DNA of 64,000 nucleotides from Tubiluchus corallicola (taxonomy: Eukaryota; Priapulida; Priapulimorpha; Priapulimorphida; Tubiluchidae). The translations under genes and the position numbers were made by a program. Where the stretch lies: contig JAQGDQ010001055.1 in the NCBI GenBank assembly GCA_030141605.1, positions 1-64,000 on the forward strand. Reading direction: 5' to 3'. The first letter of the stretch is position 1, and each line of letters starts with the position of its first letter. The notes under the pieces were generated by a model. That model did not search any database and had not been told where the DNA came from. It worked only from the letters and a program-made list of their open reading frames with translations. This document shows, one piece after another, positions 951 through 61,794 of this stretch.

Positions 951-953
951 TCT

Positions 954-975
954 TATATATATATATATATATATA
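954..975. repeat. (TA)n microsatellite at the LINE 3' end
   Basis: About eleven TA units directly abut the 3' terminus of the minus-strand LINE, after its AATAAAGATTATT end. It is probably the simple-repeat tail of that element rather than an independent microsatellite. Confidence 0.8.
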
Positions 976-1331
976 ATAATCTTTATTTGCCATTAAAAAC
1001 ATTGACAATCACTGATAAAAACTTTACAGAGATAATCAATCAGTGTTAGTTAATAAAAACTTACACTGCTGAAGGCAAATGCGTCAGTGCAATCTAAACT
1101 ACTGTGCAGTAATGACGAATAAAATCAAACATATTTACAACTATACACAAAAATATATAAAAAAAAACTATGATTTAATTAATATGGCCGTGGGTATATG
1201 AATTCGGAATTAGTGTGTATGTTGTCGTACTGGTGTGATGGTATTTCATATCTGGTTAATATTAGTGATTTTAATTTTGTTTTAAATGCTGATAGGGACT
1301 TGATTTGTTTAACCTGTAATGGTAGAGAATT

Positions 1332-2820
1332 CTAAAGTAAAATTGCTTGTTTGATTACAGAGTTCGTTCCATAGTGGGTATTTGTCCTAATTTGTTTTAG
1401 ATTGCTTGTTCTGGAATTAACGATAGGATTTGGAAAAAAGGTAAATCTGTTATTCTGGAATGGTTTGCTGATGTTGTTAATGTATTTAAATATAAAAAGC
1501 AGAGTAAAATATTCTTTGTGTGCTTCAATGATTGGGAATTTTAAAGTTTTTCTCAGATTAGTTGTTGAAGCTTTGAATTTTTGTCTACCTGCCTTGAGTT
1601 TGTATGAGTACCCAGCTATCAATCTCAACGCATAGTTTTGAAAGAGATTTAATTTTAAGTAATTTTCTCTTTTGGTTTTTTGAAGTAGCGTACATCCATA
1701 TAAGAAGTGTGGTAGAACTAAAGTTTTATATATTAGTGTTTTAGTTTCCTTTGTTAGTTGCCCTTTAACTTGTCGGAGATATGATGTGCTAGATGCCATT
1801 TTGTGTATATGTTATTAAAGTGATCATCCCATGAAAGATTATTGTCTACTTGTATGCCCAGGAATTTAACATTGTTAGTTTGTTTGATTACAGCATTATC
1901 TATTGTCAAAGTGGTTGATGATGCATCATTAGTATTTAATGAGGGTGACAGTATCATGAATTCTGTTTTGTCATTATTCATTTTAGCTTGTAATGACTAA
2001 ATGCCATATTTATATTTTTTATATCTTCTTCTAAATAATTTTTTGCAGTTTGGACATTTTCATGGGCTATGTAGATTGTAGTGTCATCAGCGTATTGCGT
2101 TATTTGTGAGTGTTTTAATACATTGGATATGTTGTTTATATATAGGCAAAATAATAACGGACCTAGTAGTGTTCCTTGCGGTATACCTCTGTTTAACGTG
2201 GCCCAGTCAGAAAAGTTGGTTGTATCTAACTTTACTCGTTGTTGTCTATCTTTGAGATAATTTTGTATCAGTTTTAACGATATCGTCTCTAATCCGATTT
2301 GTTTTAAATTATCGTAAAGTAGTTCGTGATTAATGCTATCGAAAGCTTTACTTAAATCCAAAAATGCTGCTAAAATGTATTGCTTGTTGTCTAAATTATG
2401 TCTCCAATTTTCTGTTGTGTGTATTAGGGCGTCAATGGTTGAATGGTGTTTACGGAAGCCAAACTGATGTTTTGATAAAAGTTCATGTTTATTTACATAT
2501 GAATTTATCTGATCATAAATTACCCTTTCCCAAACTTTGCCGAAACAATGGATTACGGAAATTGGGCGATAATTCATGGGATCACATTTTGGATCTTTTT
2601 TATGGATTGGAGTCACGTTTGCCATTTTACATACCGTTGGAAATTCGCCTCTCATAATTATCTGATTAGCAATGTAAGTCATATGCGGAGCTATTACAGA
2701 TGCGCTATCTTTTAGAATTTTGATAGGAATATCTGATGGTCCACTCCCTTTGTTGGAACTTAGGTTATTTAATATGTCGTTAATTTCTCCTACTGTGACG
2801 CTTTTGAATGAGAATACTGT
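1332..2820 (-). pseudogene. LINE reverse transcriptase region, frameshifted
   Basis: Open frames 2682-1978, 1981-1754 and 1799-1332 together cover a reverse transcriptase. Visible motifs are VTPIHKKDPKCDPMNYRPIS, HQFGFRKHHST, FLDLSKAFDSINHELL (motif A aspartate), RGIPQGTLLGPLLF (motif B), QYADDTTIY (motif C, catalytic DD) and KFLGIQVD. The first frame reads back upstream of its first methionine to about 2810. A further connecting piece lies in frame 3083-2790. Junctions near 1980 and 1795 are small frameshifts, for example an overlapping tga/atg where the protein should run through. It cannot encode active enzyme. Confidence 0.85.
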
Positions 2821-3079
2821 GTTAGACGATTTGTTTTTAATTTATTAATTATATTATTGCTAATATGAGAAGCCACTCCCTTAAAATTTCCAAGATTCAG
2901 GAATATTGCATTTAGCGCGTTGGCAATATCTTTGGGTTTTGTAATAACAGTGTTGTTGATCTTAATTTCGTCAACACGCGTTAGTTTGTTATGGCATTTA
3001 TTTATTACATTGTTAATAATTTTCCATTTTTCTTTGGTATTTGTTGCGTTTTTACATTGTTGTTGTATATGTTTATTTT

Positions 3080-4525
3080 TCAAGCATTTATTAAGATTAT
3101 TAAATTGATTTCTCTTTTTTTATAATTGTTATGATTGTTTTTAGTTTTGTTCTTTTCCCATATATTATACATTCTGTTTTTAGCTATTCTTAGTTTGTCA
3201 AGTTCAGGTGTTGTCCAGGTACTTTCGTTATTGAGTTTGCTTTGTTGTGGGATTTGCTTTACGTTTTTATATGGTGCATGTACATTAAGGCAATATTCGA
3301 CATTATATGTCAGAATATTAACTTGTGTATCTATTTTATCAGTCATATATACGGAGGTCCAGTTCATTTTTGCTAAGTCGCTTAAGTATGAATGTTTGTT
3401 GTATTGGGCGTAGTCTCTCATTAAATGCCAGACTGAATTTTGGTTATTATTATGCTGTGGGGTCATTTTATCTACTAATATTGTGAAATGATGATCTGAA
3501 TAATCACACGGGAAAGTATCATATGCTACGAAATTATTGTTACTATTCGAAATGAAATGGTCGATTACTGTGGCTGATGTTTTAGAAATTCGAGTAGGTT
3601 TATTGTTGTTAAGTATGTGGACATTATATTGTTTTAAGAGCTCTGTGTATGTTTTGTATGCCAGTGTGTTTGTAGCTAAAATATCAAGGTTGAAATCGCC
3701 CATTATAAGAACTTTTTTATTTTCGAAAACACTGCGTTCTAGTTCTTCACTAAAGTATTTGAAAAATGTTTTGTGTTTGAGATTGGGTGGTCTATATATG
3801 GTTCCTATTACATAGTTCTCAATGCTGCACCAAACAGATTCAATCTTGCCGGTTCTGATGCCTTTCATTTCTTGTGGTCTCAGGTGTGAAGGTATATACA
3901 TCGCAACCCCTCCACCTTTCTTATTTTTACATCTATCTCTTCTTATTAATGTGTGATTAGGTAATTCTATAGTGTTGCTAAGTATTTGTTTATGTAGCCA
4001 AGTTTCTGTTATGCCTACAATCAGATTTTCGGTGGCGTGAATTGTATCTTTCAGCAGCCAGTGTTTTTTGACGAGACTTTGAATATTTATATTTAGAAAT
4101 TTGATGTTCTTTTTATAAGTAATCATGAATTTTTTTAGCTCATCACTGGTATTATTATTGTTGGTGTTATTATTATTATTATTTGGCAAAATGGGTCCAG
4201 GGTTAGTTTCGATACCAGCAAGTATAAGTAGTAAACGAATTATGGTTAAAATGTAAGCCAGTTCAGAACATGAGTATAGAGTGCTTTCAAAGTTAGATGA
4301 AATCTGTAATTTTTCCAATTTTTTTTTTAGAGCTACGTATTTTAGATTGACATGACGCATTTGTCTTATAGCACTGAGGTACACAACTTTTAAGATGGAT
4401 ACATATATTTTTAAAATAAATTGCATAGAGTGTCTTATTCTATCGCTATTTACAGGAAAAGCAATGAAAAAGTTGTTTAAATTACCTTTAGTCATTACAT
4501 TACAAATTACTGTTATGTAGATCAT
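3080..4525 (-). pseudogene. LINE ORF: 2A-like leader plus AP-type endonuclease
   Basis: The 481-codon open frame starts with about 100 residues of no recognised domain, then AGIETNPGP at residues 103-111 (4193-4219), an Asn-rich linker encoded by an ATT/AAT repeat, and an exonuclease-endonuclease-phosphatase domain at about 140-400. Landmarks in order are FLNINIQS, ITETWL, RRDR with KKGGGVAMY, GTIYRPP, GDFNLD, VIDHFISN and YSDHHF. These include the expected catalytic Asn, Glu, Asp and His positions. In an intact element the endonuclease nicks target DNA to prime reverse transcription. The frame ends at 3080 by a frameshift, not at a natural stop, because coding sense resumes in another frame. 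Confidence 0.82.
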
Positions 4526-4980
4526 TTTCAGTTTTAGTATGGATAGTAATGTACAGTTGCTACTATCTTGCTACAGTTTAATCTTGATCCTTGTAGAAAC
4601 AATACATAGTTGCAGAACGTCTATGGAAACAAGAAAAGGAAGAGGTGTCGTGCTGGATATTTAGCCAAAATAACAATATTTATAAACAGTTTAAAAAGTA
4701 TTAAGGTTGGTCACGTTACTTGTGTCTCGCACGGTGATAGTCATTTGTGCCTATCTAACCAGATAGAGTGGACACCGAGGAAACAACGCAATGACCAATG
4801 AGGCGGCTTTTATTTAGCACTTACTGTTCTTCGATTGCTGAGGGCTTTACTCACATGCCCAGCCACATTTGCACTTAAAGCCTATACGAAATACACAGTT
4901 AAAGCGTGTGTTCGTGATCATTTTTGTGTTTTTTGCCATAAAAACTTTGTGCAGCTAAAATTCATTAATAGTAGTGAAGA
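4526..4980. other. Unassigned sequence
   Basis: No convincing gene. It may include the 5' UTR of the LINE, whose upstream boundary I cannot place. Confidence 0.4.
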
Positions 4981-5164: not shown

Positions 5165-5885
5165 GTTTCATTATTACACTGTACTACATGTATAATTTGT
5201 TACTGCTGGCTACATGTAGAGTGTGTCCTGCTGAATCAGGACTTAAGGCACTACAACAAGATGTTCCAGGTACTGTACAGCAAAAAATAGGATTTCGTTG
5301 GTTGAGTATGACTGGCTGAACGTACAGTAGTATAATTAAATAGTTCAGCTGGGCTGACTTACTTGATTTTTATACATTTTTTCAGTTTTCGTGTTTATGT
5401 TAGAATTAGGCTTTACTTTACTTTAGAAATTTTGCTTTACGACACAACATGCAAACCATAGTTAATACACCGTTTCATATTTGTTATTTTAGTACTTTGT
5501 TGCAACTTTTATTATAACTAACGCTTTTATTATAACTATGTTTGAATTTTCGCAATAAATCTTGATATAGTGCACATATACTTGCGTATAATAATTAAAT
5601 CCTCTTTATAAGAATTTACTAGACAAGTTCTTATAGTTATTTATAGTCTTAATTAATTAGTACTGTTAGGCTGGAAGCGTTAGTGGGCTACGTGGCTGCA
5701 TATTTCTCTTATCAGAAGACAGCAGTATTTCTCAAGATTGCTACTCCACATTGTGTTACCTAAAAGTTTTGCAACAGGCTGCTGTAGAACAATACCTGCA
5801 TTAATTTTGTTAATACGGCAAAAATATACAGTATAACACATGTATTGTTGTAGGTATAATAACATTATTAAAATAAAAATTGATA
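5165..5885. other. Unassigned AT-rich sequence
   Basis: No recognised gene, repeat or RNA. Short open frames only. Confidence 0.45.
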
Positions 5886-5887
5886 TA

Positions 5888-6340
5888 CAGTCAACCTCGG
5901 ATATAAGGGATGGTTTTTTACCCTTATAGCCGAAGTTGAGTCAGACCGCGGGTGTATCTAGACCAGTACTTTTCTGTACTTTCACGCACATTTTTATGGA
6001 TTATTACTACACATTCAGTGCAAACGGTATGTAGGAAACTCCTTCAGTTATGCGAGATGTATGTGACTGTGGAAACCGAGCTGTTCGAAGACCAAATTTG
6101 CAAAAAATTGAGGTTAAAAAGCGATCAATTTCGCTTTGATCATAGGGTCCCTTATATGCAAGGTAATTTACCTGGGTTTCTATTACGCAGGACCTGAAGA
6201 TATCGTCCCTTATAACCGAAAGTCCTTTATATCCGAGTACCTTATATACGAAGCTTTTTACACAGGAAAAATGTTATGAAAAATCGGGACCAGTGTTGGT
6301 GGTCCCTTATAAGCGAGTACCTTATACCCGAGGTTGACTG
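5888..6340. mobile_element. pogo/Tigger-like MITE, 453 bp, flanked by TA
   Basis: Left end CAGTCAACCTCGGATATAAG and right end CTTATACCCGAGGTTGACTG are near-perfect inverted repeats. TA dinucleotides sit at 5886-5887 and 6341-6342, as expected for a TA target duplication of Tc1/mariner/pogo transposons. The ends resemble those of Tigger/pogo elements. Extra internal copies of the ccttatannCGA motif lie near both ends (about 6200-6245 and 6301-6330). No transposase is encoded. A second, partial end (GGAGTTATAACGAAGTTTGACTG) sits at 6461-6483 and may be a related insertion. Confidence 0.85.
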
Positions 6341-6743
6341 TATTAAAATTAACTAGGAAACAAAATAGCGGTTCCAGACCATAATGGCCTTTGATATTTA
6401 ATGAACCTCACCTTACTGCCAACCCTGCTATAATGCCATATTTAGTCGTGTCTCAGACCTGGAGTTATAACGAAGTTTGACTGTAGTTTGACAAATATTC
6501 CATGCAAAATTTTATAATGCTAAAAAATTCCGCTATTATCATTTAATAATATAATAATAAAGAAAAACAGTAAAGACACCCTAAAATGTTAAGTAAATTT
6601 TATAACATTGATTTGTTATATTTTGAACCAATTTTTCAAATCGTTTGTTGTTAAATGGCAATTAATCACACACAAATAATGCAAAGTGAAACTTTGGAAA
6701 CAAGGAAAACAACTGATTATTACTAATAGACTACAGGGCATAA

Positions 6744-7898
6744 TCACAATGATGTTTTTTCGACTTCCCTTTCCCTTCTGCGTGATTCATCATAATTTTT
6801 TCTAAGAAATCTCAGAACAGGCTCAACATTTTTCTTATATTTTGCTGATACAGGTATCACAGGCTTATCAATGTGTTTAAAAACATTCAAATTTCTTTGG
6901 GACACTGACAAATCGGCTTTATTGGCAACAATTGCATGTGGAATTGTCGACAATCCTTGCTTGTACTGCTCTAGTTCATACTTTAAGTCTTCAAACTGAC
7001 TTAGCGGATCATCAACTGAAAGATCTATAACAAACAGCAAACATTCACATCTTTCAACATGCTTCAGAAAGCTATAACCCAATCCTCTATTTAGATGAGC
7101 ATCTTTTATTAGACCTGGAATATCTGCTACAGATATTTGTTCATAGTCTTCATATTGCACAACCCCAATAAAAGGATTTCTTGTCGTAAATGGATATGCA
7201 GCTACCTTAGGTCTTGCACGAGAAATTGCTCTTAATAAGGTAGACTTTCCAGCATTGGGAAATCCAACCAAGCCTGCATTAGCTATTGTTCTAAGCTCCA
7301 ACTGCACTTGCTTACTTTCACCTTGCGCACCTTCTTCAGCTAGGTAAGGAGCTCGATTTTCATCAGAAGCGAAAAAGTTGTTACCCTTCCCTCCTGCACC
7401 ACCTCTTGCAGCAATATAAATATCACCTGCTTTTTGCAAGTCCCCAATAATATGTCCATTATCATCAAAAACCATTGTTCCAGGAGGCACTTTAATCACA
7501 AGATGCTGGGCATTTTCGCCAGTACAGTTCTTTGTTCCTCCATTTTTTCCACTATCTGCTATATTGACTGTCTTCACATGACAAAGCGATTTACAGTTCA
7601 TATCAACTTCAAGGATAACATGGCCGCCATAACCACCATCTCCACCATCAGGACCAGCCCACTCATTACACCACAATCTAAGAAACGATATACCACCATC
7701 ACCCCCATTGCCTCCTTGCACCTTTACCATTCTATAATCAATAAACAGCTTCTTGTTATCTTGCAAAGCTCGTGGCTTCTTCCATTTCATGACTTTAATT
7801 GTATCAGAAGCTTTCTCAAAAGTTTCAGCAGTTGTCTTCACAGAAAACAATGCAGAAATTGGGAAAAAGCTAGGCATACGAGAAAAAGTTTTAAGCAT
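6744..7898 (-). CDS. MTG2: MTG2/GTPBP5, mitochondrial Obg-family ribosome assembly GTPase
   Basis: A 384-residue, intronless coding region. In animals MTG2 (GTPBP5, ObgH1) acts in the mitochondrial matrix in late maturation of the large mitoribosomal subunit. The N terminus (about 1-45) is basic and lacks acids early on, as in mitochondrial presequences. The glycine-rich Obg fold spans about 53-208 (QGGNGGDGG, GPDGGDGGYGGH, RGGAGGKGNNFF). The G domain has GFPNAGKS (212-219, G1), FTTRNPFIG (switch I), DIPG (259-262, G3), NKAD (326-329, G4) and SAK (351-353, G5). DLKYELEQYKQGLS and GGTKNC match GTPBP5 better than GTPBP10. An in-frame TAG lies 12 bases upstream of the ATG, fixing the start within this exon. 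Length is close to the human protein (about 406). All motifs are intact, so it should be functional. Confidence 0.94.
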   Translation of the reverse strand: MLKTFSRMPSFFPISALFSVKTTAETFEKASDTIKVMKWKKPRALQDNKKLFIDYRMVKVQGGNGGDGGISFLRLWCNEWAGPDGGDGGYGGHVILEVDMNCKSLCHVKTVNIADSGKNGGTKNCTGENAQHLVIKVPPGTMVFDDNGHIIGDLQKAGDIYIAARGGAGGKGNNFFASDENRAPYLAEEGAQGESKQVQLELRTIANAGLVGFPNAGKSTLLRAISRARPKVAAYPFTTRNPFIGVVQYEDYEQISVADIPGLIKDAHLNRGLGYSFLKHVERCECLLFVIDLSVDDPLSQFEDLKYELEQYKQGLSTIPHAIVANKADLSVSQRNLNVFKHIDKPVIPVSAKYKKNVEPVLRFLRKNYDESRRREREVEKTSL

Positions 7899-8633
7899 TT
7901 CAAAGCACTATCAACTGCCAACCAATTTCATGTATCTGCTATGCATAACATCTTCTTAAAGTATGTATGAAAACATAAACAGTTGCACAGTTCAACTCTT
8001 TATCACAAAAGAAAATTAAAAGTTATTAACAGAGCACATTTTAATCAAAGTCAAGTAGGTTATGTTTTTTTGTTCCTTGTTGCACTACTAATGAAAACTA
8101 AAGCAAATTAAGTCCGTCACCAATAGTTTCTCTTCCCCTTGTTCCAAATTCAGTTTTCACTTAGAATCATTAGAAGCCAATGACATAGTTTATATGCTTT
8201 TGTGTACCACTAAATGGAAATGAGCACTTTGCAGGAGTTCTCAGAAAAGTTGTAACTTGCAAAATTAGCACCTACACAAATATAAAAAATACACAATTAA
8301 TAAAATACAGCATTTGGGCATTTGTAGTCTTGTCATTTAATACTAGATTTATTCCTGACTACCGTAGAAAAATAACTTTGTTGCACAGCTTTAAAGCTGT
8401 ATAATATCATCATCCTGTATAATGGGATACCACAAGCAGTATGTGCCTCAGTTATCAGTAAATAGCACATTGTACATCAGGATCAAGGCAGCGCTGTTGA
8501 TTGGCGCAAAACATCTCCTTATTCCAAGTCGGTGTCCCACAACAGATGCTGAAAAAAGAGGTGGAAGTTTTATATGATTATACGCAGGATGTCATGCTAG
8601 GCCGTCCGAATCAGGATGTCATGCTCGACACAC
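7899..8633. other. Upstream of MTG2; no gene seen
   Basis: Contains whatever promoter serves MTG2, but no obvious core motif or CpG cluster. Two copies of aggatgtcatgct lie near 8585-8622, just before the reverse-transcriptase remnant. Confidence 0.4.
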
Positions 8634-27500: not shown

Positions 27501-30500
27501 ACTGGGACTTTCAGAATTAGATAATTTCCTAGCTGGAGATGTTTGCGTAGCATGTTCAGCACCAACTGCCGTGCGTTTATCACGGTCAGAATATCGGAAG
27601 CGGGATGACATCTCGGTAAGTTTCGCTTTGTCTACACTAACGGGTTTCACAGGAATTGCAGTACTGCGTGTGTATCGATATGGATCGTGGGATCCACCAT
27701 CTTTTCCATCAGGTGACAGTTTTTCCGCATCGGTACGTGAAGCGCTGCTGTACATGTGCTGTGATTTCAAGTCGTCGTGTGCATTGACAGGATGCTGGTG
27801 TAGATATTTGCTGAGATTCTCTCTGAAATCTGCTCCTTGTTCTCGCTCTGGCTGATCAAGCTTCTGTGGTGACACCTGTAGTTGATCCCCAGAATCAGTT
27901 GGATACCTAGAAACAAAGCATTTTGATTTTTTAGATAAGACAGATAAGCTATTTTAAATAAACTAAAGATTGTTCTTCGTTTATTAAGAGACACAGTCAG
28001 GTGAACAAAAACCCATTACTATGTCCCGACTTATATACTTCATTTGAAAAATCAGCTTATAATAGTAGTGAAAGAAATCACTAACACTTAGAGGAGCAAC
28101 CTATACTTGTTTTACTATTATTCTCCAAAAACTTTCAGCAAGTGACGCCATCATAAAGGAACAGAAATAGCCAACTACGATTCAAGAAAACATCAAAAAA
28201 TAAAAAAATGGTGGTGTAAGTCAAGCAAAAATAAATTATTTTACAGTGAATAAATCCAGGAATTGACCGAACAATTATATATATATATATATATATATAT
28301 AATACCTTTGACTTGCATCCGCTGTTACTCCATACATCCAGTTCTGTGGGATCCGACGATCTGGCTTATTGCCCCTGTCAATTATCGGGATAAGCGGCTG
28401 CCCATTTCCACCTATCCGTTGCAGATATCCACTGTGTACCACAGCATCTTGACTAGGTCTGCTGTGTTTATGTCTACCGTGTGACAGTGTTGCGTAGGCC
28501 TCAACGGACGTATGAACCGGACGCTGATCCCCATAATATGAAGAGTAATACCTCTCTTCTCCAGGTACCGGCATAACAGGTACAGCTCCGTGTTGCCTTC
28601 GCTCATTCTCATAGAACCTGCTCTTACTTTGATCCATAGCATCTTCTGGTGGAATGTTGTATCCAGGTGCTTCGTTTACATTCGTGTCTGAAGAAGCTCT
28701 GGATATTTTCGGCTGCGAAGTCCGAAAAGAGTCCCATATCGACGGCCGCATTCCGGAGCCTTCCGTATCTGAGCCAATGTCCATGTCGCTTTCTGCGCCA
28801 CCGGAAGTGTAGCTCATGCGCGATGTCATCGGAAACAGGAAATAATCATCCAAATTATCCTCCAGTTTTACGTCGGACATCCATATGGGCTGCTCTTGCT
28901 GACGGTCAATCGTGTCCAGCAACTTCTGATACCAGAGGTCGTTGTTGGTCAACTGCACAGTGGCAGTGAAAAGGTGTGAATACATCTTTTCCAGTTTTAA
29001 TCCGGTTTCAAACAGCTTTCGCGAACTCTTAGCGGCCGACTTGTTGTGTTTCATTCGCAACGCCTTCACTTGATTTTTGCTGTCGGCACGAGTGAAAATG
29101 ACTATAGGATAATACTGAGCATAGTTAAGACGATCCACAGCATTCGGTGTAATATCAACCACAGCATGTTTTGCTGTCTCTATAATTTCGCGTATTGCTC
29201 CTAATCGAACAATGCCGGCTTTCAAACTGACCTTGCCATCGTGGCCTTCGCTCACTTCCACTTGAGGCGACTCAAACTTGTCTGGCATTTCACTGAGAAG
29301 CCGATCGCGAACTACATCAGCCACTGGTCCAAAGATGACCACCGGCCGTACAAATCCAGGATACTTCCACTTAATCTTTTCGTATGCCGGAAACTTGGAG
29401 CCAGAGTTTGAAAATACGATTTCATCCCAATGATCGCGATTCAAAGATTTAGACCTAAAAATAAGGAAACATTTAACATACATCACCACATTTTTCAACA
29501 AAATTTCCTGCATTATATACAAATCCCTTTAACTCATTTTAATTGAAAATCCGTCTTACTGCTACAGAAGTCCTGACGATAAAAAGAAATCTGAAATTAT
29601 GCAAAACTTTCATGATCACGACAAGAAAAAATTGGATCATGACGAAAATCAACCTGCTAAAATGTTACAGCTAGTGTGGACCCAATGCCTTAGAATTTGA
29701 TGAACAGATTTCAATTTTTAAGAAATCAACATAGTGTAATTACACATTGCTCAAACTTAACCGAAATGCTAGTCCATTGAAATAGCTAAAATAATAGTCA
29801 AAATTAGTATGTACATTTGTCTTTGGCTGACAGCCAACATGTTGCCTCATTTGCTGCAAGTCGTTTTGAAAATCTGTAACATGATACTAAGCTTGACAGG
29901 ACAAGCCAAAGGGTACCTGAAGTAGGTTTCAGAAAAATCGCCTAAAAAATTATATTACTTTATAGCAATTTTATGAGTATATCGTACTCGGGTTCAGAGA
30001 TTTTCTGTTTGTTTTCATTTTAAATCTCCGGTGAAACTTCTGAAGTCACTATGGAAATGTAAATCAGGGGAGAAAAGAAAATGTTAAAATATTTCCCAAA
30101 AAAACTTTCCATGCAAGGTTATTGTATTTATCATTTTGCTTACCTGCTTGAAAGACTTATGTAATTAAAAAAGAAATTATTAATTATTTAAAATGCTTTC
30201 ACCAATTGATAAAATGTCGCTGACTCACCCTCCAGTGTTCATCACTCACTAACCAAAAACGTATTCTTAATCTTATTGACGAAATACAGTAATTTAGAAT
30301 TTTACTTAGTTAGTGACTTGTGCACTACGAATGCTCTGATTATCTTTTCAAACTTTACACAGTGTTATCTAAACTTGTTTTGAATAACCTGTCGTCAAAA
30401 TGGCTGCGTTTAACGGTCATCGCGGGAGTTTAAATTTACATGTTTTGTCCAGCATTACTGCTGGTGCAAGTCTGGCATGAAAAAAGGTAGTATGCAAGTA

Positions 30501-33500
30501 GTATAAAATTTCAAGACGAATTTTCTAAGCTATATGTAAGTAGAAGGTTTGCTTGTGCTTTACCACTAGTTATATCTATCTACTAACATTTGCAGCTTGC
30601 TTTACAGTTTGACGACTTGCTACTACATTTTGATAAACTGAAGTTTTGTAAAAGATTAAAACACTTCATTCGCTACTTGACTAAAGTTAATGAAGATTAG
30701 TGTACTTATTAGTAAGTGACAAAGAGATAATCACAGATTAAGGTAAAGAAACACATAGTGTAATAGAAGACTGTACTGTGAAAATGTACTTAGACATACC
30801 GTCGTGCACTTTTTCTTCGGAAGAAAGTTCCTCTTCCAGAGTTTTTTGAACCACTCCTCCCTTCTCTATTACCAGCTGCCAGGGCTAGCTGCTCTGCACG
30901 ACTTTTGTTGGGAATTATTCCTGACTGAGTTTCTTGATTATTTCTTCCTATTCTGGCTGCTTCCCAGGCTCCAACAACTCCGTTATGAAGAGTATCTTTG
31001 ATATGGAAGATGTCTCCAACACGGAAACTAAGCTCTCCTACAAAGACGGTCAGAAATTATTCTACAACTAAAATAAGCCTACATACGAGTAAGTGATAAA
31101 CCAGTAACATTTAGCCAAATGGTAAACATGGTATCAGTGCAAGTATTAAAAGTTTCTGGTATCTCATTAATATTAAACCTACATATACACACTTCTTAAG
31201 TTCATTTAGCCATTTCCTTTCAGACTTTCACATTAATACATAATGCAGACATACATCAGTGAATAATGACAAAGGCGAACTACCATAGGACAATATTTCA
31301 AAACTTCATAGCACATGCAGATGTATATCTATTGCATTATACAGATTGATTCATAAAGCATTTAAGTTACACACAATATTATGGCGCGTTCAGACTAGCA
31401 AGTTTTCTGTCACGAGGTTTCTCTCTGATAGCAAACTCACAAGTGTGAGCTGCTTCACGAGTTACTGTCAGCAAATTATTACAAATTCTCCAACAGTTGC
31501 CATGAACGTTTCGGAGAGTAACTCTCAACATTTCTTGCAACGTATAGAGAAAGGAACGTCAGTTCATGTTTATTGCCAGAGAGCAACTCGCAGCAAGTTT
31601 TGCTCTCTAATCTGAACACAATTACGAGTTACTGGCAATTTACTTGGCTAGTTTACTTGACAAGAAAATGCGCTAGTCAGAACTCGTCGTAAGACACTAG
31701 GGACACATTTAAGTATCATATTCACCAATAGAAGCTAATTCTAAAAGTAAAAATGCCATAATTTATTAAAAAAATTTTACGACTTTCTGTCCTGAAGAGA
31801 GTATTTGAGTAGCATAAGTACGACAATCAAAGAACATAAAAATTTCCTTATTTATTGAAGTACGCTACCTTTGTCTCCCTCGTAGTTAAAATGTGTACGT
31901 ATGTAGAAGCTGTCACGTAGCTGAGTAGCCACAATTCTCTCGTACTCATCACGTCGGTACTGGACAATAAGATCGATTTGGTCCTGCACTTGTAAGCTCA
32001 AGAGAAACATGACCGCATCTTCGCGAGTCACATTTTCCATAGAGCGGTCATTTACCTACATGAAACACAAGCCCTTAGACAATGACGTAGCATGGGGTGT
32101 GCAGATGGCATGTCTTTCGGGAGAGGAATGCCAATTTTAACCAAAGTACGGGACAAACAAATCGGTCAAAACTAATGCACTTAGAACAACCAATGTGCAA
32201 TTATCTCCTCAGTAATAAGAAAAATGAAATATTACCTGGTTTTATTTTAAAGCTTTAGCCCTAATTAGATCTATATGATTATTTCAACAATATCTAACAA
32301 AAGAAAAAACCATTCATACTCTGCAGAACAACCATTAAACAAAAGGCTAAGAAACTGGAAACAAAATGTCATTTTAAAGCCTTCCCAAACAGAGATTTAA
32401 TGAGGACGAGATTTGATTTTAAAAATCACATAATATTATTTGGCTTCCTATAATCCTGAAAAATCCACAATTTTAAAACTTTAAGCATGTTTTTGGTGTA
32501 CTACATTAAAGATCAAGTCATTTTTGTACTTAATTCTGCAAAATTTACTTTTATCAAGACGATTGTAATAAACTGAAATTTTCTCAACTTTTAGTCCTCT
32601 TTGAGTTATTATATCATTCACAGTGAACTGAAAGTTAATTTCAAGCACACATTAAGACTTAGGTGAACCACAGACTCTTCAAAGCAGATGCACTTATTTT
32701 AATAAGCAAATACACATATAAAAATTAAAAATTCAATTACCTTTAAAATTTTGTCACCAGGTCTAAGGCCTGCAAGAGCTGCAGGAGACCGAGGCTGTAC
32801 AGCTGCTACAAATATCCCGACCTCATTCCCGCCAGTCAGTCTAATTCCCACATTGCCTTCCTTCCTAAAAGACACAAACCTGGGATCCGGAGGCATCCTG
32901 TGTGCGACATTGCTATAATACCCTTCCATGACTACAGGCGCAGGAGCATTGGGTGTAATAACACGAGCATGGGGTAACGGAACCATATGTCCATTTGGGG
33001 TGTGACCAGAAGACGGTAGATGCACGCGAGGCTCAGTGCTCTCTTCCTCTGATGACCGAACTTGTTGAGGGCTGACACCTCCTCCATCTAATGCAGGTGC
33101 TGAAGACTCATACACTGGGTTGCGATTACGACTAGGTAGCCTTTGAAGGGTATCGATGTTACTCGACTTAGGAGGAGTACTTTGCGGTAGCGGCAATCGT
33201 CCGTAACCATAATCGCTGGGAGGTAACGGCGCCCCAACCGAACCAGCACCCAGCGAAGCACGACTGCGTGAACGTCCCCTGTGTACACTACGAGATATCA
33301 ACAGATTTAACTTATCTTTAGTTTTATCAACTGCTTTCTGAGCATCGGTCAGCGATAATGTGTCAACGGACGTGCCGTTAATTTTCACGATATAATCACC
33401 TTCTTTCACAGAACCTTCATTAGCTGCCACACTATCACCTATAATTTCTTTAACATACACCTTGCAACCTAACACAATTCCAAACTCGTCCTTTTTCTTA

Positions 33501-34990
33501 GACTTCGACAAAGTTATCTTGCGCACGAGCTGTTCAAGATCGCCAACTGGTGGCAAAACTTTTCGCTTTATCGTCAGTGACACAGTATTGCCACTTTCCA
33601 TCAGCACACGTATAGCCGTAGTATTATCTATGTTCTCCAGCATCACACCATTAGCACTGATAATGCGATCATTAATTTGCAACTTGCCTTCAGCTGGACC
33701 GGCATGCAAAACGTCGGATATTGCAATTGAAGGATCGCCACTAGCGAAATGTGGATTATCAGTTCCACCACTCACAGCAATTCCGAATCCGAACCCCGGT
33801 ACGCGTGTCAGTGTCACATTATGCACCTCCCAGTAAAACCGATCTCCCAGTTCGTCAATTTCATAGCTAACAGGCCTGTAAAATCAAACAATAACAGCAT
33901 AAAAACAGTACAATATATAAAAGCTAAAAACCTAGCTGTGAATTTATAATTATGTGTTATATGATTAATGCAAGACAATTTATTAAACCAATTTAATAGA
34001 CAAGGTATTGCATATGTTTTGTCAGTTTTTATGGGCAGAAAACAGAAAACAATATAATTATTGGAGGCTAAAACTGCATTTTGTCTGTCGTTAATTTTTG
34101 CCAAAAACGTTAAGAAGTAAACCTAAGCGTTAGTCATCGTTAATTCAAAAAATGAAGTACAAACTCCTTACCCATCCTTCCATGAGCCGGTTCCGGATTC
34201 TTCGCACTGGCTTCTGTTATCTTTTGCCCAGTAACCTCTTGCTGAGCCATCATTAAAAGACCTACGAAAGAAATTAACCTGATCAATATAAAATATTACT
34301 AGAGCAGACAAACTTCAAAAAACATAACAAAAACGATTAATATTACTGAATAACATTTTATGCAAATTACAGTAACATATTTAATACTTTGTTGTTGGGA
34401 AAATTTGTTTATAATTGTATAGCCAAGAGGAATTTAAAAGACTGTAAAAATGTACAAAATAATAAGCTACATTTAAGTAAACAAACTTTATGGAACCTTA
34501 AGAATGCAATATAGTGTAGGAAGCACACTGTACTTTCTCTTGCATTGAAACATTACAACGTATCTCATTTTTTACACTTAAAGACAGATGTTTGCCCAAC
34601 ATACTACTACATAACAGTGCATGACCGTAGCACATTTTTTAAAGTAGCACAGCTTGGTTTCTAGTTTGAACTTAAAACTTTTTATCCTTGAAAAACAAAA
34701 TTAAGAGCCCTATTTATAAACAACATAAATAGAGTAAATGTTAATTACATAATAATAAAAACAAACCTGGATCGATTAATATCTGCCATGTTATTACTAA
34801 ATTTTGGTGACCCAGCAGCAGACAGGACTGACTCAATGGTCGTGGCATTGACTGGAGAGTATTGTTGTTGTTGCTGTTGCTGCTGCGGTGGTGCACCACT
34901 GTCATAGGTAAAAGATGCATTTCCAGATTCCGATTCTGGCGGCAAGGAATTGATGCCTGGCATGCTACCGTCTTGGTTTGGCAGTGACAT
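23272..34990 (-). CDS. TJP1: ZO-1 / tight junction protein (polychaetoid orthologue), eleven coding exons, 1553 aa
   Basis: Exons in transcript order: 34990-34767, 34261-34172, 33875-32741, 32055-31869, 31037-30800, 29454-28306, 27906-26907, 26576-26393, 24586-24467, 23883-23774, 23496-23272. Splice sites are all GT...AG, phases agree throughout, total 4662 nt. The protein is a membrane-associated guanylate kinase homologue that scaffolds cell-cell junctions, binding claudin-type tails (PDZ1), partner ZO or JAM proteins (PDZ2/3) and actin-linked factors. Order: PDZ1 122-210, PDZ2 222-300, PDZ3 435-515, SH3 533-600, catalytically dead GUK 660-830, proline-rich region 1340-1400, ZU5 1403-1553. 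The ZU5 domain identifies ZO-1 rather than ZO-2/3. The first Met (34990) follows an in-frame TGA at 35015-35017. Ends SVSVLVDHF, as in vertebrate ZO-1. Confidence 0.96.
26393..26576 (-). CDS. TJP1: ZO-1 exon 8: proline-rich segment
   Basis: Encodes residues 1342-1402, including [20 protein letters not shown], a likely SH3-ligand type stretch. [13 protein letters not shown] just before it resembles a conserved block near the ZU5 domain of vertebrate ZO-1. Confidence 0.93.
26649..26800 (-). mobile_element. LINE 3' fragment with (TTAC)n tail, in ZO-1 intron 7
   Basis: Minus-strand sequence ends GACAAATAAAGATACTTACTTAC. It shares CAAATAAAGAT with the 3' end of the LINE at 973-4525 and the tetranucleotide tail with 11040-11187. 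The 5' truncation point is uncertain. Confidence 0.5.
26907..27906 (-). CDS. TJP1: ZO-1 exon 7: low-complexity linker
   Basis: Encodes residues 1008-1341. Rich in Ser, Pro, Thr and charged residues with a Thr/Ser tract around [20 protein letters not shown]. No folded domain; in vertebrate ZO-1 the equivalent part binds actin and other partners, though I cannot align the motif. Confidence 0.93.
28276..28300. repeat. (TA)n at the ZO-1 exon 6 donor
   Basis: About twelve TA units begin three to four bases into the intron (GTATT, then ATATAT...). Length variation here could affect donor strength. Confidence 0.9.
28306..29454 (-). CDS. TJP1: ZO-1 exon 6: guanylate-kinase-like domain and acidic linker
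   Basis: Encodes residues 625-1007. [19 protein letters not shown] replaces the P-loop (GxxGxGK) of true guanylate kinases, so the domain binds protein rather than catalysing GMP phosphorylation, as in all ZO proteins. [20 protein letters not shown] and HLFTATVQL are conserved landmarks. The donor lies three bases before an uninterrupted (AT)n tract. Confidence 0.95.
30800..31037 (-). CDS. TJP1: ZO-1 exon 5: SH3 domain and basic U5-like region
   Basis: Encodes residues 545-625. [15 protein letters not shown] and [11 protein letters not shown] are the SH3 core, followed by [12 protein letters not shown], the conserved end of SH3 in MAGUK proteins. The basic tail FFRRKSARR leads to the GUK domain. 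Confidence 0.94.
31383..31688 (+). mobile_element. MITE family A, copy 2 (ZO-1 intron 4), ~306 bp
   Basis: Begins GGCGCGTTCAGACTAGCAAG and ends near CTAGTCAGAACTCGTCG. It aligns with the reverse complement of 16396-16714 over the whole length, sharing tttgctctcta(a/g)tctgaaca and gagttactgtcagcaa. No coding capacity. Confidence 0.75.
31869..32055 (-). CDS. TJP1: ZO-1 exon 4: end of PDZ3, start of SH3
   Basis: Encodes residues 484-545: [18 protein letters not shown] completes PDZ3 and [14 protein letters not shown] starts the SH3 fold. Confidence 0.94.
32741..33875 (-). CDS. TJP1: ZO-1 exon 3: PDZ1, PDZ2 and most of PDZ3
   Basis: One 1135-nt exon encodes residues 105-483. PDZ1 has the carboxylate loop [14 protein letters not shown]2 has the atypical loop EFGIVLG with [16 protein letters not shown], the region that swaps strands to dimerise in vertebrate ZO-1. 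PDZ3 has [15 protein letters not shown] and continues in exon 4. A Ser/Arg-rich linker (RGRSRSRAS) follows PDZ2. Confidence 0.95.
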
Positions 34991-43626: not shown

Positions 43627-44042
43627 GGTGTCCATAAAGTCTGGGTACATAGTAAAAACAAATACTTTTTAAAAAACAATTTTATTCAATTTTGATGTTG
43701 ATAAATAATATTTTCAACATGATTTCCATCATTTTCAATGCATAATTTGATGCGTTTTACAAAATTCATGTGAACTCGATGGAATAGATCCGCATTGCCG
43801 TCGATTTCAGCACACTGACTGGTAATGCGTTCTCTTAAATGGCTTAAATCTGTAATCTTCATCGAGTACACTTTCTCTTTTAGCACGCCCCAGAAAAAGA
43901 AGTCAAGGGGAGTACGGTCTGGTGAACGAGGGGACCACTCTACATTGACAAGACAAAGCCATTTTCTTTCTGAGGAGAAAAAATAAAAACAAATAAATAA
44001 ATAGTAAAATCCCTTATGTACCCAGACTTTATGGACTTTATG
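43627..44042 (-). mobile_element. Tc1/mariner-superfamily element, internally deleted, ~415 bp
   Basis: Inverted ends CCATAAAGTCTGGGTACA (43632-43649) and TGTACCCAGACTTTATGG (44017-44034) bracket it. Between them a minus-strand frame (43704-43937) encodes the C-terminal part of a DDE transposase: EWSPRSPDRTPLDFFFWG, then KEKVY, LRERI and NHVENII. SPDxTPLDF carries the third catalytic Asp; the first two catalytic positions are missing, so the copy is inactive. Relatives with these signature words are widespread in arthropods. Confidence 0.8.
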
Positions 44043-47000
44043 ATAATAGCATGCACTATGTTCACTGATTTCAGTGGTATCCACCCTCTCCTTCTCGTCC
44101 ATCAATTTCAAGCGTTACAATAAAAACGACTTTTGTCAGCATTTGTTTACTTTTCGCCGTTTCTTCATTTTCTAGAAATCGATCCACTTAGAACTGAAGA
44201 GTTACAAGTGGGCCCATTGAAGCCACGCAGTCAATCTGCCACCCATCTGTGGAAACGTGAAGCCAAGCGGTTACTTCAGCGGTGACGTGCGTCGGCGGCG
44301 CAAATATGAGAAAAAAATGAAAAATTATACTCTAAGCGTAGAGTTACAAAACTACTGTGGAATGTGGAACAGGCTCAGGAGTTACGTCGTTTAAACTTTA
44401 ACATACTTAAAAGTTAACCAGATAGGTCTAGTCCGACTATCTAATAGTAATAACTGTATGCAACCGTTGAAATTTTCAAAGAGATTGTGCCACAAACAGC
44501 CAATTGGACACGTCTTGCGAATAGACGTACGGGACAAAGACGTCTTCTCCTGGCAGAAGAAATTGTCCTGAAAGGCCTTGTCCACTTGTATTTCGTTTTA
44601 TACTAAATGTAGATATGTGTATATACGCAGATATGTAGTCATTCCCCACTGTGTCGTTAAAACACATTGTCACGGTCCCCATAAGCAATGAAAGTGCTTC
44701 TCGCGGCTGTGCTGTAACTAATTATTAAAGATACATGTGCTCTGTCTACATTACAAGATTAATCCGGGTCCTAGTTATACACATATTGTAAGACCACAGA
44801 TAGTCAAGGAAAGTTCAATACCTGTAGTGATTTTACTGGCTGTGTGACTCTTCACATCAGATCCACATTTAAAAAGTCTACGACGGCAGAGAGTATTTTT
44901 TGCCTAGTGTAAATGGGGTTCAAGACAGCACCCAGTTATGAGAAGATCCGGACAAAAATGAAAAAACATAAGGGTCGACAAGCGTAAGGTCAGTAGACAA
45001 ACGATGAAATGGACGCAAGTTTGTCTCCTGGCATTTTCAGCTACATCCATTGGAAAAAATATTTCCTCTAATAATTCTGTTTTTGAAACGTTACAATTCA
45101 GCTGAAACTTTCACTATAAGATGTCATTTAATTACCAAACAAAAAAGAAGAAAAAGAAGAAAGAATGGTTCAACGCTAGACGTGTACGGCATTTACTTAC
45201 GAAGCCTCGCATACGAAGTGGCGAGCTCATCGCTCGGTGGCCCTTTTCTCCTTTTCAACACATGAAAGAACTCTCAGCAGGCCCAAGAAGAAACAGCTTG
45301 AAAAATTCGATATAAGTGAGATTCGCGTCTTCACGTTAAACAAAACGCACGAAAAAATACAGAAGGAAAACAGTAAGACTTTAACTACAGGTTTAACGAA
45401 ACAAATAAAACAATATTGTTTTCCCCTGTTTCACACTCATCTAAAATCAATTTATCGGCTAACTAAATCTTTGTGACGTGCAGTGATTAAATATACAAAA
45501 CACGCAGTCAGCTATAAAATGAAAATGTTTATAGGCAATTTTCCAATTGCATATTCAACCTACTTTCACTGCTACAAATAAATCTTATAGATCATCTCTT
45601 TCTCCTAACAAAGCTTGTTCTTAATCTGTCGGCGCAATGTCAGTTTCTTCAATACACGTTTCAATTAAACTTCTAATCCAGACAGATTAGATGCTGACAG
45701 AATTAATTTCTATTGGAAATCTGGAATGCTGCAGTTGCAAAGACGTGGTGTTTTTAGAATACGCACACGAAGATCATTAAAAAAGGTCTGACGTAGTATA
45801 ATAATTTTGGCAACAAATTATGAAAGTTGAATTGTCAAGCACAGCTTCAACAAAGCAGCACAGAAACTTTCTACTTTGTTGCAAGATTACATATTTATCA
45901 AACACGCCAATATTGTCATGTTATATGGCTAACACTTAACAACTTAAGCAATACGCAAGAAAAGTTTCAGGTGTTCTGTCTCGGCTTTTTCTAGTGTCCG
46001 TGATTGAAAAGCTCAGTTACGTGTATTGTAATCAGCACCAAGTCACAGAAGGTAGCACGAAACTCCGAAAACACGATTTTTTGAGCTTGAGTCGAATCTT
46101 AGTCGATAATTTACACAATTGCATTCATTGCCATGCTGACTGTTGTACAGCGTTTCGGGAATTGAAAATAACAAGCGTACGACAAAAATCAAATGTGTGC
46201 CGTGTGTCATAACAAAGTAGCTCCTCAAAGTGTTGTGGCAAGACGTGTATTTTGTGATCTTAACAGCGCAAAAAAATGCTATCTTGTTGCTTTTAACGCA
46301 GTGCTCAGTTCGCAATGTTCAGATCAATTTGTAAAACAGACAAAGACGTGTACAATGCACGAGCAATGTGGCGTTGCTTTTGTGATACAATTCACGTCAC
46401 ATAAAGCTGAGACTAGGTCAGGAGTCACTTCAGCCCAACAGAAGTTTTATTAAAAAACTTGCCCGGGGCTGTTGCACGTTTCAAGCATACTTCATCCTCT
46501 CTGTAATCTCCAAAGCTTTTTACCGCCTACAGTAATGCAAGGCGGTGTATTTTCATCGCGCAGCATATATATACGCCAGCATGCTAGATCCATCAGAAAC
46601 AGCGGTCCATTCAGTCCAAATAAGCTTAGATAGCCATATTAATTCACTCGCACTGAAATGTATATACTTGTCTGTGAAAGTGTACAATAATTAGTAAGTT
46701 GTCAAAGTCAGTCTTAGACAAATATCGTTTTTTGAAACATACGTTATGTTTTTATAGACTGATTTTGCATCCACACATTAGACTAAATGTCAACCTGATA
46801 AAAACGCAAATTTGCAAAATCCGACAAAAAGTGTTTTGACTGGGCAGGTACGATTTTGTTGAAATGTTTCAATTATACTGACTATTAGTAATAGATCTAA
46901 ATGCCAAACCGCCGATCTTTATATAGGGCACTGCCATAATTGTGAATGACCATGCTGAAAACGCAGGCATAGACATAGCAAAGTGTGCAGTGTCTAACAG

Positions 47001-60345: not shown

Positions 60346-61710
60346 TCACCTAATGTCACTCTCTGGAGCTTGTTTATGAGCAAGATATAGAAACACTATA
60401 CTTGAAAGTGCACTAACAAGAAATATCACATCAAACCAACGGTGATAAAAGTTAAACTGCAAGTCACCGAGCACTTCCGTTATGATAGAACGGTATTCGG
60501 GCGGCATGTTCATTCTCATAAGCAGCACCGACGAAACAAAGTACATGCCCATAATCTGAGCTAGTGCGAGAACTATGATGTTCGATGATCGGCTACTCGA
60601 TATGGCATAAAAAAACTTCGTTAGTGTAATGAGAAGCCCACGAATTGACGTCACCACAATAATTCCTACCAAAATGAACGATATGTGCTGAGACCAAAAC
60701 TTTACATCAAATTGGATACCCAGATAATCGACCGCAATCTCAAAACCACGTGTTATGGGATCTTTTTTTCCGACACGATTAAAAATGATGTTGATGGTTG
60801 CCATAAATATCTTGTAAGAACAGTAGAGGGAGAAGAAGTAACCGAGGAAGTTGTACCAGCGACCTTTAAGCGTTTTTGAGTACTCTATGCGTTCGCGCAT
60901 GTTGTGCATATCGGAAACTTCCAGAAAGAGTTGTCGGCTCAACTCCTCGAGAGTAAGTATTTCCTGTTGAAGGAGGCTCGTGTTCTCTCCTGATCGCATG
61001 GAAGCAGCATTTTTCAGCATCCCCCATATGCCTCCAGCAACTGAACTTGTGGCACTTGACTTTAACAGTTCTCTCTTTGCCAAGGCAATTCTCTTCTTCT
61101 TTACCAAAATGATGTCCATTGTCTGTGTTAGTTTTCTCTCTAAACTTTCAATATCTTTATCAGAAACATGCTGTACAAAGTACGACATGTATGTATACGG
61201 ACAGTTAACTGCTCCAAATCCAGACAATAAAGCCATTAGTGTTACCCCTATAACACCTACACGACTTATGCCTTGCTCGATGGAAAGTATTCCATGTTTT
61301 GGACTTAGTATGGGAAAAGGATCTCCTATTTTCCAAAAAAAATAAATGAAGGTTGCCCATATTATGAAAGTCAGCCAGTAAACGAGCTTACGTTTCACAA
61401 ATCGGATATTACTGACGATGTAGTAAGCAATGTAGAAGGGAAGCAGCACAATAACACTGCAAAGCATTAAGTACAAACCCAGTTTCCAATGAAAATAACG
61501 TGATCCGGAGTCCAAAAACCCAAGAATTTCAAAAATTATCAATTCGAACATTGTACATGATAGAGAAAAGGTAGCAGAAAAGAGTAACTGAACGGTGCGA
61601 TGGTGAATTTCATAGTCCTTGAACAGTTGTTTGACAAAGAAAACCCAACCCCCAACAAAGAAAAGTACTTGTGTGAATAACATCAATGCTGTGTCAAACA
61701 AAAGTCCCAT
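60346..61710 (-). CDS. GPR89: Golgi pH regulator (GPHR/GPR89), 454 aa
   Basis: Multi-pass Golgi membrane protein reported in vertebrates to act as an anion channel that supports Golgi acidification, protein sorting and glycosylation. The human protein has 455 residues, so this copy is full length. Hydrophobic segments are visible at about 3-26, 39-66, 75-99, 109-128, 152-171, 289-311, 343-368, 378-398 and 425-445, nine in all, with a long charged, coiled-coil-like loop at 185-285. Conserved stretches include KDYEIHHRTVQLLFSATFSL, CTMFELIIFEILGFL, GVTLMALLSGFGAVNCPYT and DPITRGFEIAV. The coding region has no intron, although vertebrate orthologues have many. A cag acceptor at 61793-61795 suggests a 5' UTR intron. 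No poly(A) tract follows the gene, so a recent retrocopy is not supported. Confidence 0.95.
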   Translation of the reverse strand: MGLLFDTALMLFTQVLFFVGGWVFFVKQLFKDYEIHHRTVQLLFSATFSLSCTMFELIIFEILGFLDSGSRYFHWKLGLYLMLCSVIVLLPFYIAYYIVSNIRFVKRKLVYWLTFIIWATFIYFFWKIGDPFPILSPKHGILSIEQGISRVGVIGVTLMALLSGFGAVNCPYTYMSYFVQHVSDKDIESLERKLTQTMDIILVKKKRIALAKRELLKSSATSSVAGGIWGMLKNAASMRSGENTSLLQQEILTLEELSRQLFLEVSDMHNMRERIEYSKTLKGRWYNFLGYFFSLYCSYKIFMATINIIFNRVGKKDPITRGFEIAVDYLGIQFDVKFWSQHISFILVGIIVVTSIRGLLITLTKFFYAISSSRSSNIIVLALAQIMGMYFVSSVLLMRMNMPPEYRSIITEVLGDLQFNFYHRWFDVIFLVSALSSIVFLYLAHKQAPESDIR

Positions 61711-61794
61711 CCTGCTACTTTCTATGTTTCTCTAGCTTGTTTTAATGTTTCTATAGCAATGAACTGCGTGCATTAAGTATGCATCTTAGACCTG

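Follow-up and report, generated by a model that had tools for sequence, protein, structure and literature searches.

The StopGo or 2A core is currently defined as (D/G/C/N)(V/I)ExNPGP (Li et al. 2026, PMC12846837), and in the StopGo sequences of RNA viruses Gly at position p12 is about as prevalent as Asp (PMC12846837). The same study compares its upstream motif 5, whose final (A/G/S)G falls at p12, with the L-rich motifs. The 2A of infectious flacherie virus (IFV) is listed as AGIESNPGP (PMC8623073) and achieves a separation of about 63% as a short sequence and 99% as a longer one (PMC2885027). The GxExNPGP sequence of DHAV-1 is active, whereas replacement of Asp abolishes the activity of the FMDV 2A (PMC6249498). 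The FMDV result implies that context matters, and the active Gly-bearing signals of IFV and DHAV-1 imply that Gly works in suitable contexts.

As far as they are described where cited in PMC4981915 and PMC12846837, the known non-LTR retrotransposon 2A (2013, MBE) and that of trypanosome L1Tc (Heras et al. 2006) are in-frame StopGo sequences of APE-type LINEs, at an internal polyprotein site. In sea urchin NLR, an N-terminal 2A doubles as a signal sequence, and dual localisation has been shown (PMC4981915). The present analysis concerns a stretch of 64,000 nucleotides from the priapulid Tubiluchus corallicola, referred to below as the window, which carries what is probably a StopGo-type signal. 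Judged from sequence comparison, this signal would part the ORF2 leader from the endonuclease-reverse transcriptase (RT) in an APE-type LINE family, with Gly at p12 as the family norm.

The motif and its likeness to known signals

On the minus strand, window positions 4193-4237 read RLLLILAGIETNPGP in frame, through the reverse-strand codons CGT TTA CTA CTT ATA CTT GCT GGT ATC GAA ACT AAC CCT GGA CCC. The first-pass annotation had placed a 2A-like motif at 4193-4219; the sequence is indeed present, and its strand, absent from that annotation, is minus. The NPGP codons occupy 4193-4204 of the minus strand; ribosomes are predicted to skip the bond that would join the Gly of codon 4196-4198 to the Pro of codon 4193-4195. 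The window holds a single ExNPGP and 300 Markov-shuffled windows hold none, while the 343.5-Mb genome contains 57 matches to [V/I/M]ExNPGP against 6 with a reversed control pattern. The occurrence of ExNPGP in the window is not due to chance.

The core octapeptide conforms to the current definition. The strict older core, D(V/I)ExNPGP, does not fit, as Gly stands at p12 both in the window and in every other A-family copy read; since the older definition was widened in PMC12846837, this mismatch is no bar to membership. Gly, earlier regarded as the one misfit of the motif, is thus among the residues allowed at this position (PMC12846837). The upstream context, LLLILAG in the window and LLLILGG in the family, is L-rich with (A/G)G at p12 and was likened to motif 5 by eye from the published description. 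Like motif 5, LILAG and LILGG end in (A/G)G at p12, whereas motif 5 prefers Pro at p15, a position held by Thr or Ser in the LINE; motif 5 was moreover defined in RNA viruses and lies outside the set assayed in PMC12846837.

Compared with IFV, the AGIETNPGP of the window differs from the AGIESNPGP core only at p15, a free position. The core with Gly at p12 is shared by the LINE with the 2A of IFV and the 2A1 of DHAV-1, both of which are experimentally active; these two signals sit in viral polyproteins, and their likeness to the LINE is functional rather than one of descent. The upstream context of the window and the family would, by this analogy, suffice for skipping with Gly. The LINE shares with the known non-LTR retrotransposon 2A and with that of L1Tc an in-frame StopGo at an internal polyprotein site. 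Relative to the Asp-bearing LINE 2As as described in the citing papers, it differs in having Gly at p12 (Cys in sister families) and in placing the motif after a hydrophobic open leader of 215-340 codons. Sea urchin NLR (PMC4981915) likewise has a hydrophobic N-terminal stretch fused to 2A; those are immune genes of the host, with their 2A N-terminal or nearly so, whereas here the stretch belongs to a retrotransposon ORF2 with a long leader.

The LINE copy in the window

The coordinates of the LINE and its parts are collected in the table below. The copy is about 98.7% identical to a longer copy, L021 (on C507), with 38 substitutions in 3600 aligned bases. The first-pass annotation, which described an APE-type LINE with the 2A directly upstream of the endonuclease, is borne out by a single frame that runs through the motif into the Exo_endo_phos domain (Pfam matches in the window copy with E 1.6e-6 and 3.5e-7). 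Endonuclease and RT both belong to ORF2, where Pfam finds Exo_endo_phos and RVT_1.

Features of the LINE copy in the window (positions in the window)
Feature	Position	Strand	Remarks
Whole LINE copy	~952..4554	-	5'-truncated inside ORF2 leader; 3' end adjoins (TA)n run
Reverse transcriptase fragment	1978..2841	-	Other frame; RVT_1 found in aligned part of L021
496-codon open stretch (remaining ORF2 leader, 2A and endonuclease domain)	3083..4570	-	
APE-type endonuclease domain	3491..4087	-	Pfam Exo_endo_phos; Exo_endo_phos_2 overlapping
Variable Asn-rich linker ILPNNNNNNTNNNN, from 2A to endonuclease	4151..4192	-	Length differs among copies
2A/StopGo core octapeptide G-I-E-T-N-P-G-P	4193..4216	-	Fits (D/G/C/N)(V/I)ExNPGP of PMC12846837
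L-rich upstream element R-L-L-L-I-L-A	4217..4237	-	Corresponds to motif 5 and its final (A/G/S)G, p12

Relative to L021, the ORF2 of the window copy has lost a single base from an A-run at five places and has TAG for one TGG, and it is because of the single-base A-run deletions that the RT fragment lies in another frame. Every one of the frameshifts is a deletion in an A-run, and near 3122 the length of the A-run ranges from 6 to 9 among LINE copies, so that sequencing or assembly may be at fault for some of them; the frameshifts are either homopolymer assembly errors or real slippage. Owing to its 5' truncation, the copy is non-autonomous whatever their origin. The truncation at ~4554 and the frame breaks agree with the earlier description of a dead copy: it is a non-autonomous LINE remnant, unable to make a full ORF2.

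An esterase (GDSL/SGNH) ORF1 is typical of CR1-like elements. The truncation of the window copy falls before ORF1; a Lipase_GDSL domain was found by Pfam in the ORF1 of sister family B (L072), and the A-family ORF1 in L022 has similar GDS and GVND stretches, as judged by eye. From the APE endonuclease and RT, together with the esterase ORF1 of its relatives, the LINE is provisionally assigned to the CR1/L2 kind.

Several other features were observed in the window. A single-exon OBG-type GTPase gene (MTG2/GTPBP5-like) lies beside the LINE at 6744-7907 on the minus strand. At 5878-6350, an element of about 470 bases with 31-base inverted ends (ACAGTCAACCTCGGATATAAGG...) resembles a pogo/Tigger-type non-autonomous DNA transposon, and a second similar inverted end lies at 6465-6485. 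Further along lie a ZO-1-like gene with exons for PDZ and guanylate-kinase domains (28275-33883) and the Golgi pH regulator GPHR (60346-61731); these neighbouring genes would by themselves point to an animal host. A 142-codon open stretch with WSPRSPDRTPLDFFFWG at 43686-44114 on the minus strand was taken by eye for a mariner/Tc1-type transposase remnant; it has no Pfam match.

The p12 residue and the core among copies and sister families

A 600-base search of the genome returned 42 DNA matches, of which about 24 span the full length with at least 98% identity. NPGP was present in 20/20 copies first read, and all of these except the window copy read GGI(E/A)TNPGP. The distinct sequence contexts compared comprise 12 with the commonest core and one variant in which E is replaced by A. 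The A-family form of the signal is ...AYILTIIRLLLILGGIETNPGP, and the window form has Ala at p11; this Ala (GCT) is private to the window copy, the family residue being Gly (GGT). The diverged subfamily A2 (L025-L030) retains the A-family core. All but a few degraded relatives keep NPGP, and its loss in the old copies L033, L084 and L085 is as expected of dead copies.

Five contigs (C2209, C2140, C2136, C2016 and C1796) carry one pair of LINE copies with identical spacing. Because these contigs are apparently redundant, or haplotype contigs, independent insertions are fewer than the raw copy counts.

Since all other readable A-family copies have Gly at p12, Gly is the family state. It is highly improbable that the ancestor of the window copy had Asp, which then mutated to Gly in this copy as part of the decay of a canonical 2A. 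The window copy is dead, and the genome has canonical GD forms at other places (L089, L091), as decay would suggest; against this, Gly is found in every other readable A-family copy, and family B also has Gly, with different codons, which places the change in the ancestry of the family. Decay from Asp to Gly in the window copy was rejected on the evidence of the other copies. An in-frame loss of the Asp codon in the window copy (A-G aligned to canonical A-G-D) was considered separately and dropped, the family having G-G at equal length and no A-family copy G-D; such a loss may have occurred as a more ancient event.

Of the two origins that the first-pass annotation had left side by side for the Gly, that of a family variant therefore stands and that of decay falls, with Gly in all other readable A-family copies and Gly or Cys in the sisters. 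Conservation of NPGP among copies, which the same annotation had named as the check on its claim, was examined, and NPGP proved to be conserved. The A-family signal is most likely a fresh example of the 2A sequences already known in non-LTR retrotransposons, and not a decayed one.

A protein search with the 2A-endonuclease region identified sister families whose endonucleases are about 56-66% identical. Families A-D were identified through endonuclease homology, and the motif was not used for their selection. The core is GGIESNPGP in family B (L069-L072), GCIESNPGP in family C (L073, L078, L083) and GCTETNPGP, with Cys at p12 and Thr at p13, in family D (L074-L077, L079-L082, L087). E, N, P, G and P are invariant among families A-D, with at least 7 synonymous codon changes and 0 amino-acid changes; the codons are GAA/AAC/CCT/GGA/CCC in family A, GAA/AAC/CCA/GGC/CCA in family B, GAG/AAC/CCA/GGG/CCC in family C and GAA/AAT/CCA/GGT/CCC in family D. 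A larger count of 115 synonymous to 0 amino-acid changes was set aside, as it includes motif-selected matches and non-independent pairs. The motif forms a conserved island: on its upstream side 20-25 residues, and on its downstream side the linkers, differ among families A-D. By these codon comparisons, the core is conserved under selection across the four families.

Conservation by descent of a structural linker that plays no part in recoding is quite unlikely to account for this pattern: the StopGo core is kept residue for residue with its codons free to change and its adjoining linkers unmatched, the L-rich context belongs to a known class, and other lineages in the genome have D, G or C at p12, where viruses allow these three and one further residue. 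Against the StopGo reading stand the loss of FMDV 2A activity when Asp is replaced, the Thr at p13 of family D, which is off consensus, and the one A-family variant with E replaced by A.

The Thr at p13 of family D falls outside the published (D/G/C/N)(V/I)ExNPGP, and this family includes near-identical copies (C1784, C1139) whose ORFs are about 1140 codons long. Canonical forms found elsewhere in the genome as motif-pattern matches are LAGDIELNPGP (L091) and SGDIELNPGP (L089), and further such matches are SGGVELNPGP (L096), GCVECNPGP (L097) and GCVEINPGP (L093). Among distant LINEs with about 33% endonuclease identity, the cleanly readable ones have no NPGP at the equivalent site; a zinc-finger-like stretch (PHD-like, by eye) stands at the 2A site instead.

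The ORF2 leader and a proposed mechanism

In longer copies, the open codons before the 2A number 337 in L021, 305 in L022, up to 254 in A2 and about 216 in family B (range 215-340), and early ATGs are present in these open leaders. The motif therefore does not occupy the N terminus of the ORF, where 2A-like sequences of some non-LTR retrotransposons are known, as the first-pass annotation had noted. Leader and endonuclease share one frame, with the 2A between them, in L021, L022, L072 and L069. The chance of such open leader lengths arising from composition is P ~1e-7 to 1e-12 (A1, A2, B), and a chance open frame was dismissed as unlikely on these values.

Pfam revealed no significant family in the leaders, and a search by sequence for a solved structure gave none at E up to 0.01. 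The leaders change fast: those of A1, B and C are little alike, and the B leader gives a weak match to a copy of family C (29% identity, E 3e-4). Leader codon substitution counts with Monte Carlo simulation (A1, A2/C and B copies) gave P 0.05-0.69 for amino-acid constraint; the endonuclease control was positive in this test (0/4000 simulations, between families). Subfamily A2 (L025-L030 compared with L078 and L073) is chimeric, combining a family C leader with a family A 2A-endonuclease, and the junction lies near residues RQM(R/C)HVNLK.

The hydrophobicity of the leader is 0.78 against 0.47 for its own shuffles in A1 and 1.01 against 0.46 in B, an excess of 1.6-2.5 SD; for A2, C and D no clear excess over the shuffles is seen. 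T-rich composition accounts for part of this hydrophobicity. The A and B leaders contain several hydrophobic segments with a Kyte-Doolittle mean of at least 1.6.

These segments, the hydrophobic stretch immediately before the core in families A-D and the double role of the sea urchin NLR 2A as a signal sequence (PMC4981915) would all agree with a motif kept mainly for membrane or secretory targeting through the hydrophobic LAYILTIIRLLLIL and the Gly after it, in which case skipping would be weak or have been lost and the endonuclease-RT would be tethered to membranes. This reading is unlikely, as targeting has no need of the exact E-x-N-P-G-P that is kept under synonymous change, and the hydrophobicity is partly a matter of T-rich composition, with no clear excess beyond A1 and B.

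On the preferred reading, that of a StopGo-type signal, we infer skipping activity, its efficiency and a role for the leader as follows. The family that carries the signal would be a young one of APE-type non-LTR retrotransposons, with an esterase ORF1 in its relatives, and the signal itself a natural version in which Gly at p12 goes with an L-rich element upstream. In an element that is intact, translation would pass through the hydrophobic ORF2 leader and then LLLILGGIETNPG, whereupon the nascent chain would, from within the exit tunnel, prevent the Gly-Pro bond from forming and free the leader. Translation would resume at Pro, yielding the endonuclease-reverse transcriptase as a separate protein. 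Part of the product may plausibly stay unskipped, as a fusion that the leader directs to membranes or anchors there. The window copy, being 5'-truncated and frame-broken, retains the signal but has no such role itself.

A further proposal, possible though doubtful, is that the 2A marks the junction between a long, hydrophobic leader, perhaps a multi-pass membrane one that families can exchange, and the endonuclease-RT; the efficiency of StopGo would then decide the balance between free and membrane-tethered RT, and GCTETNPGP would be functional outside the published consensus.

The arrangement raises the question of why LINEs would detach a hydrophobic leader from their replication enzyme. One animal genome offers a natural series of StopGo variants, with Gly, Cys and Asp at p12 and Ile, Val and Thr at p13, and the four main families put variants on a shared endonuclease-RT backbone. 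This series could show which upstream context rescues the loss of the Asp side chain.
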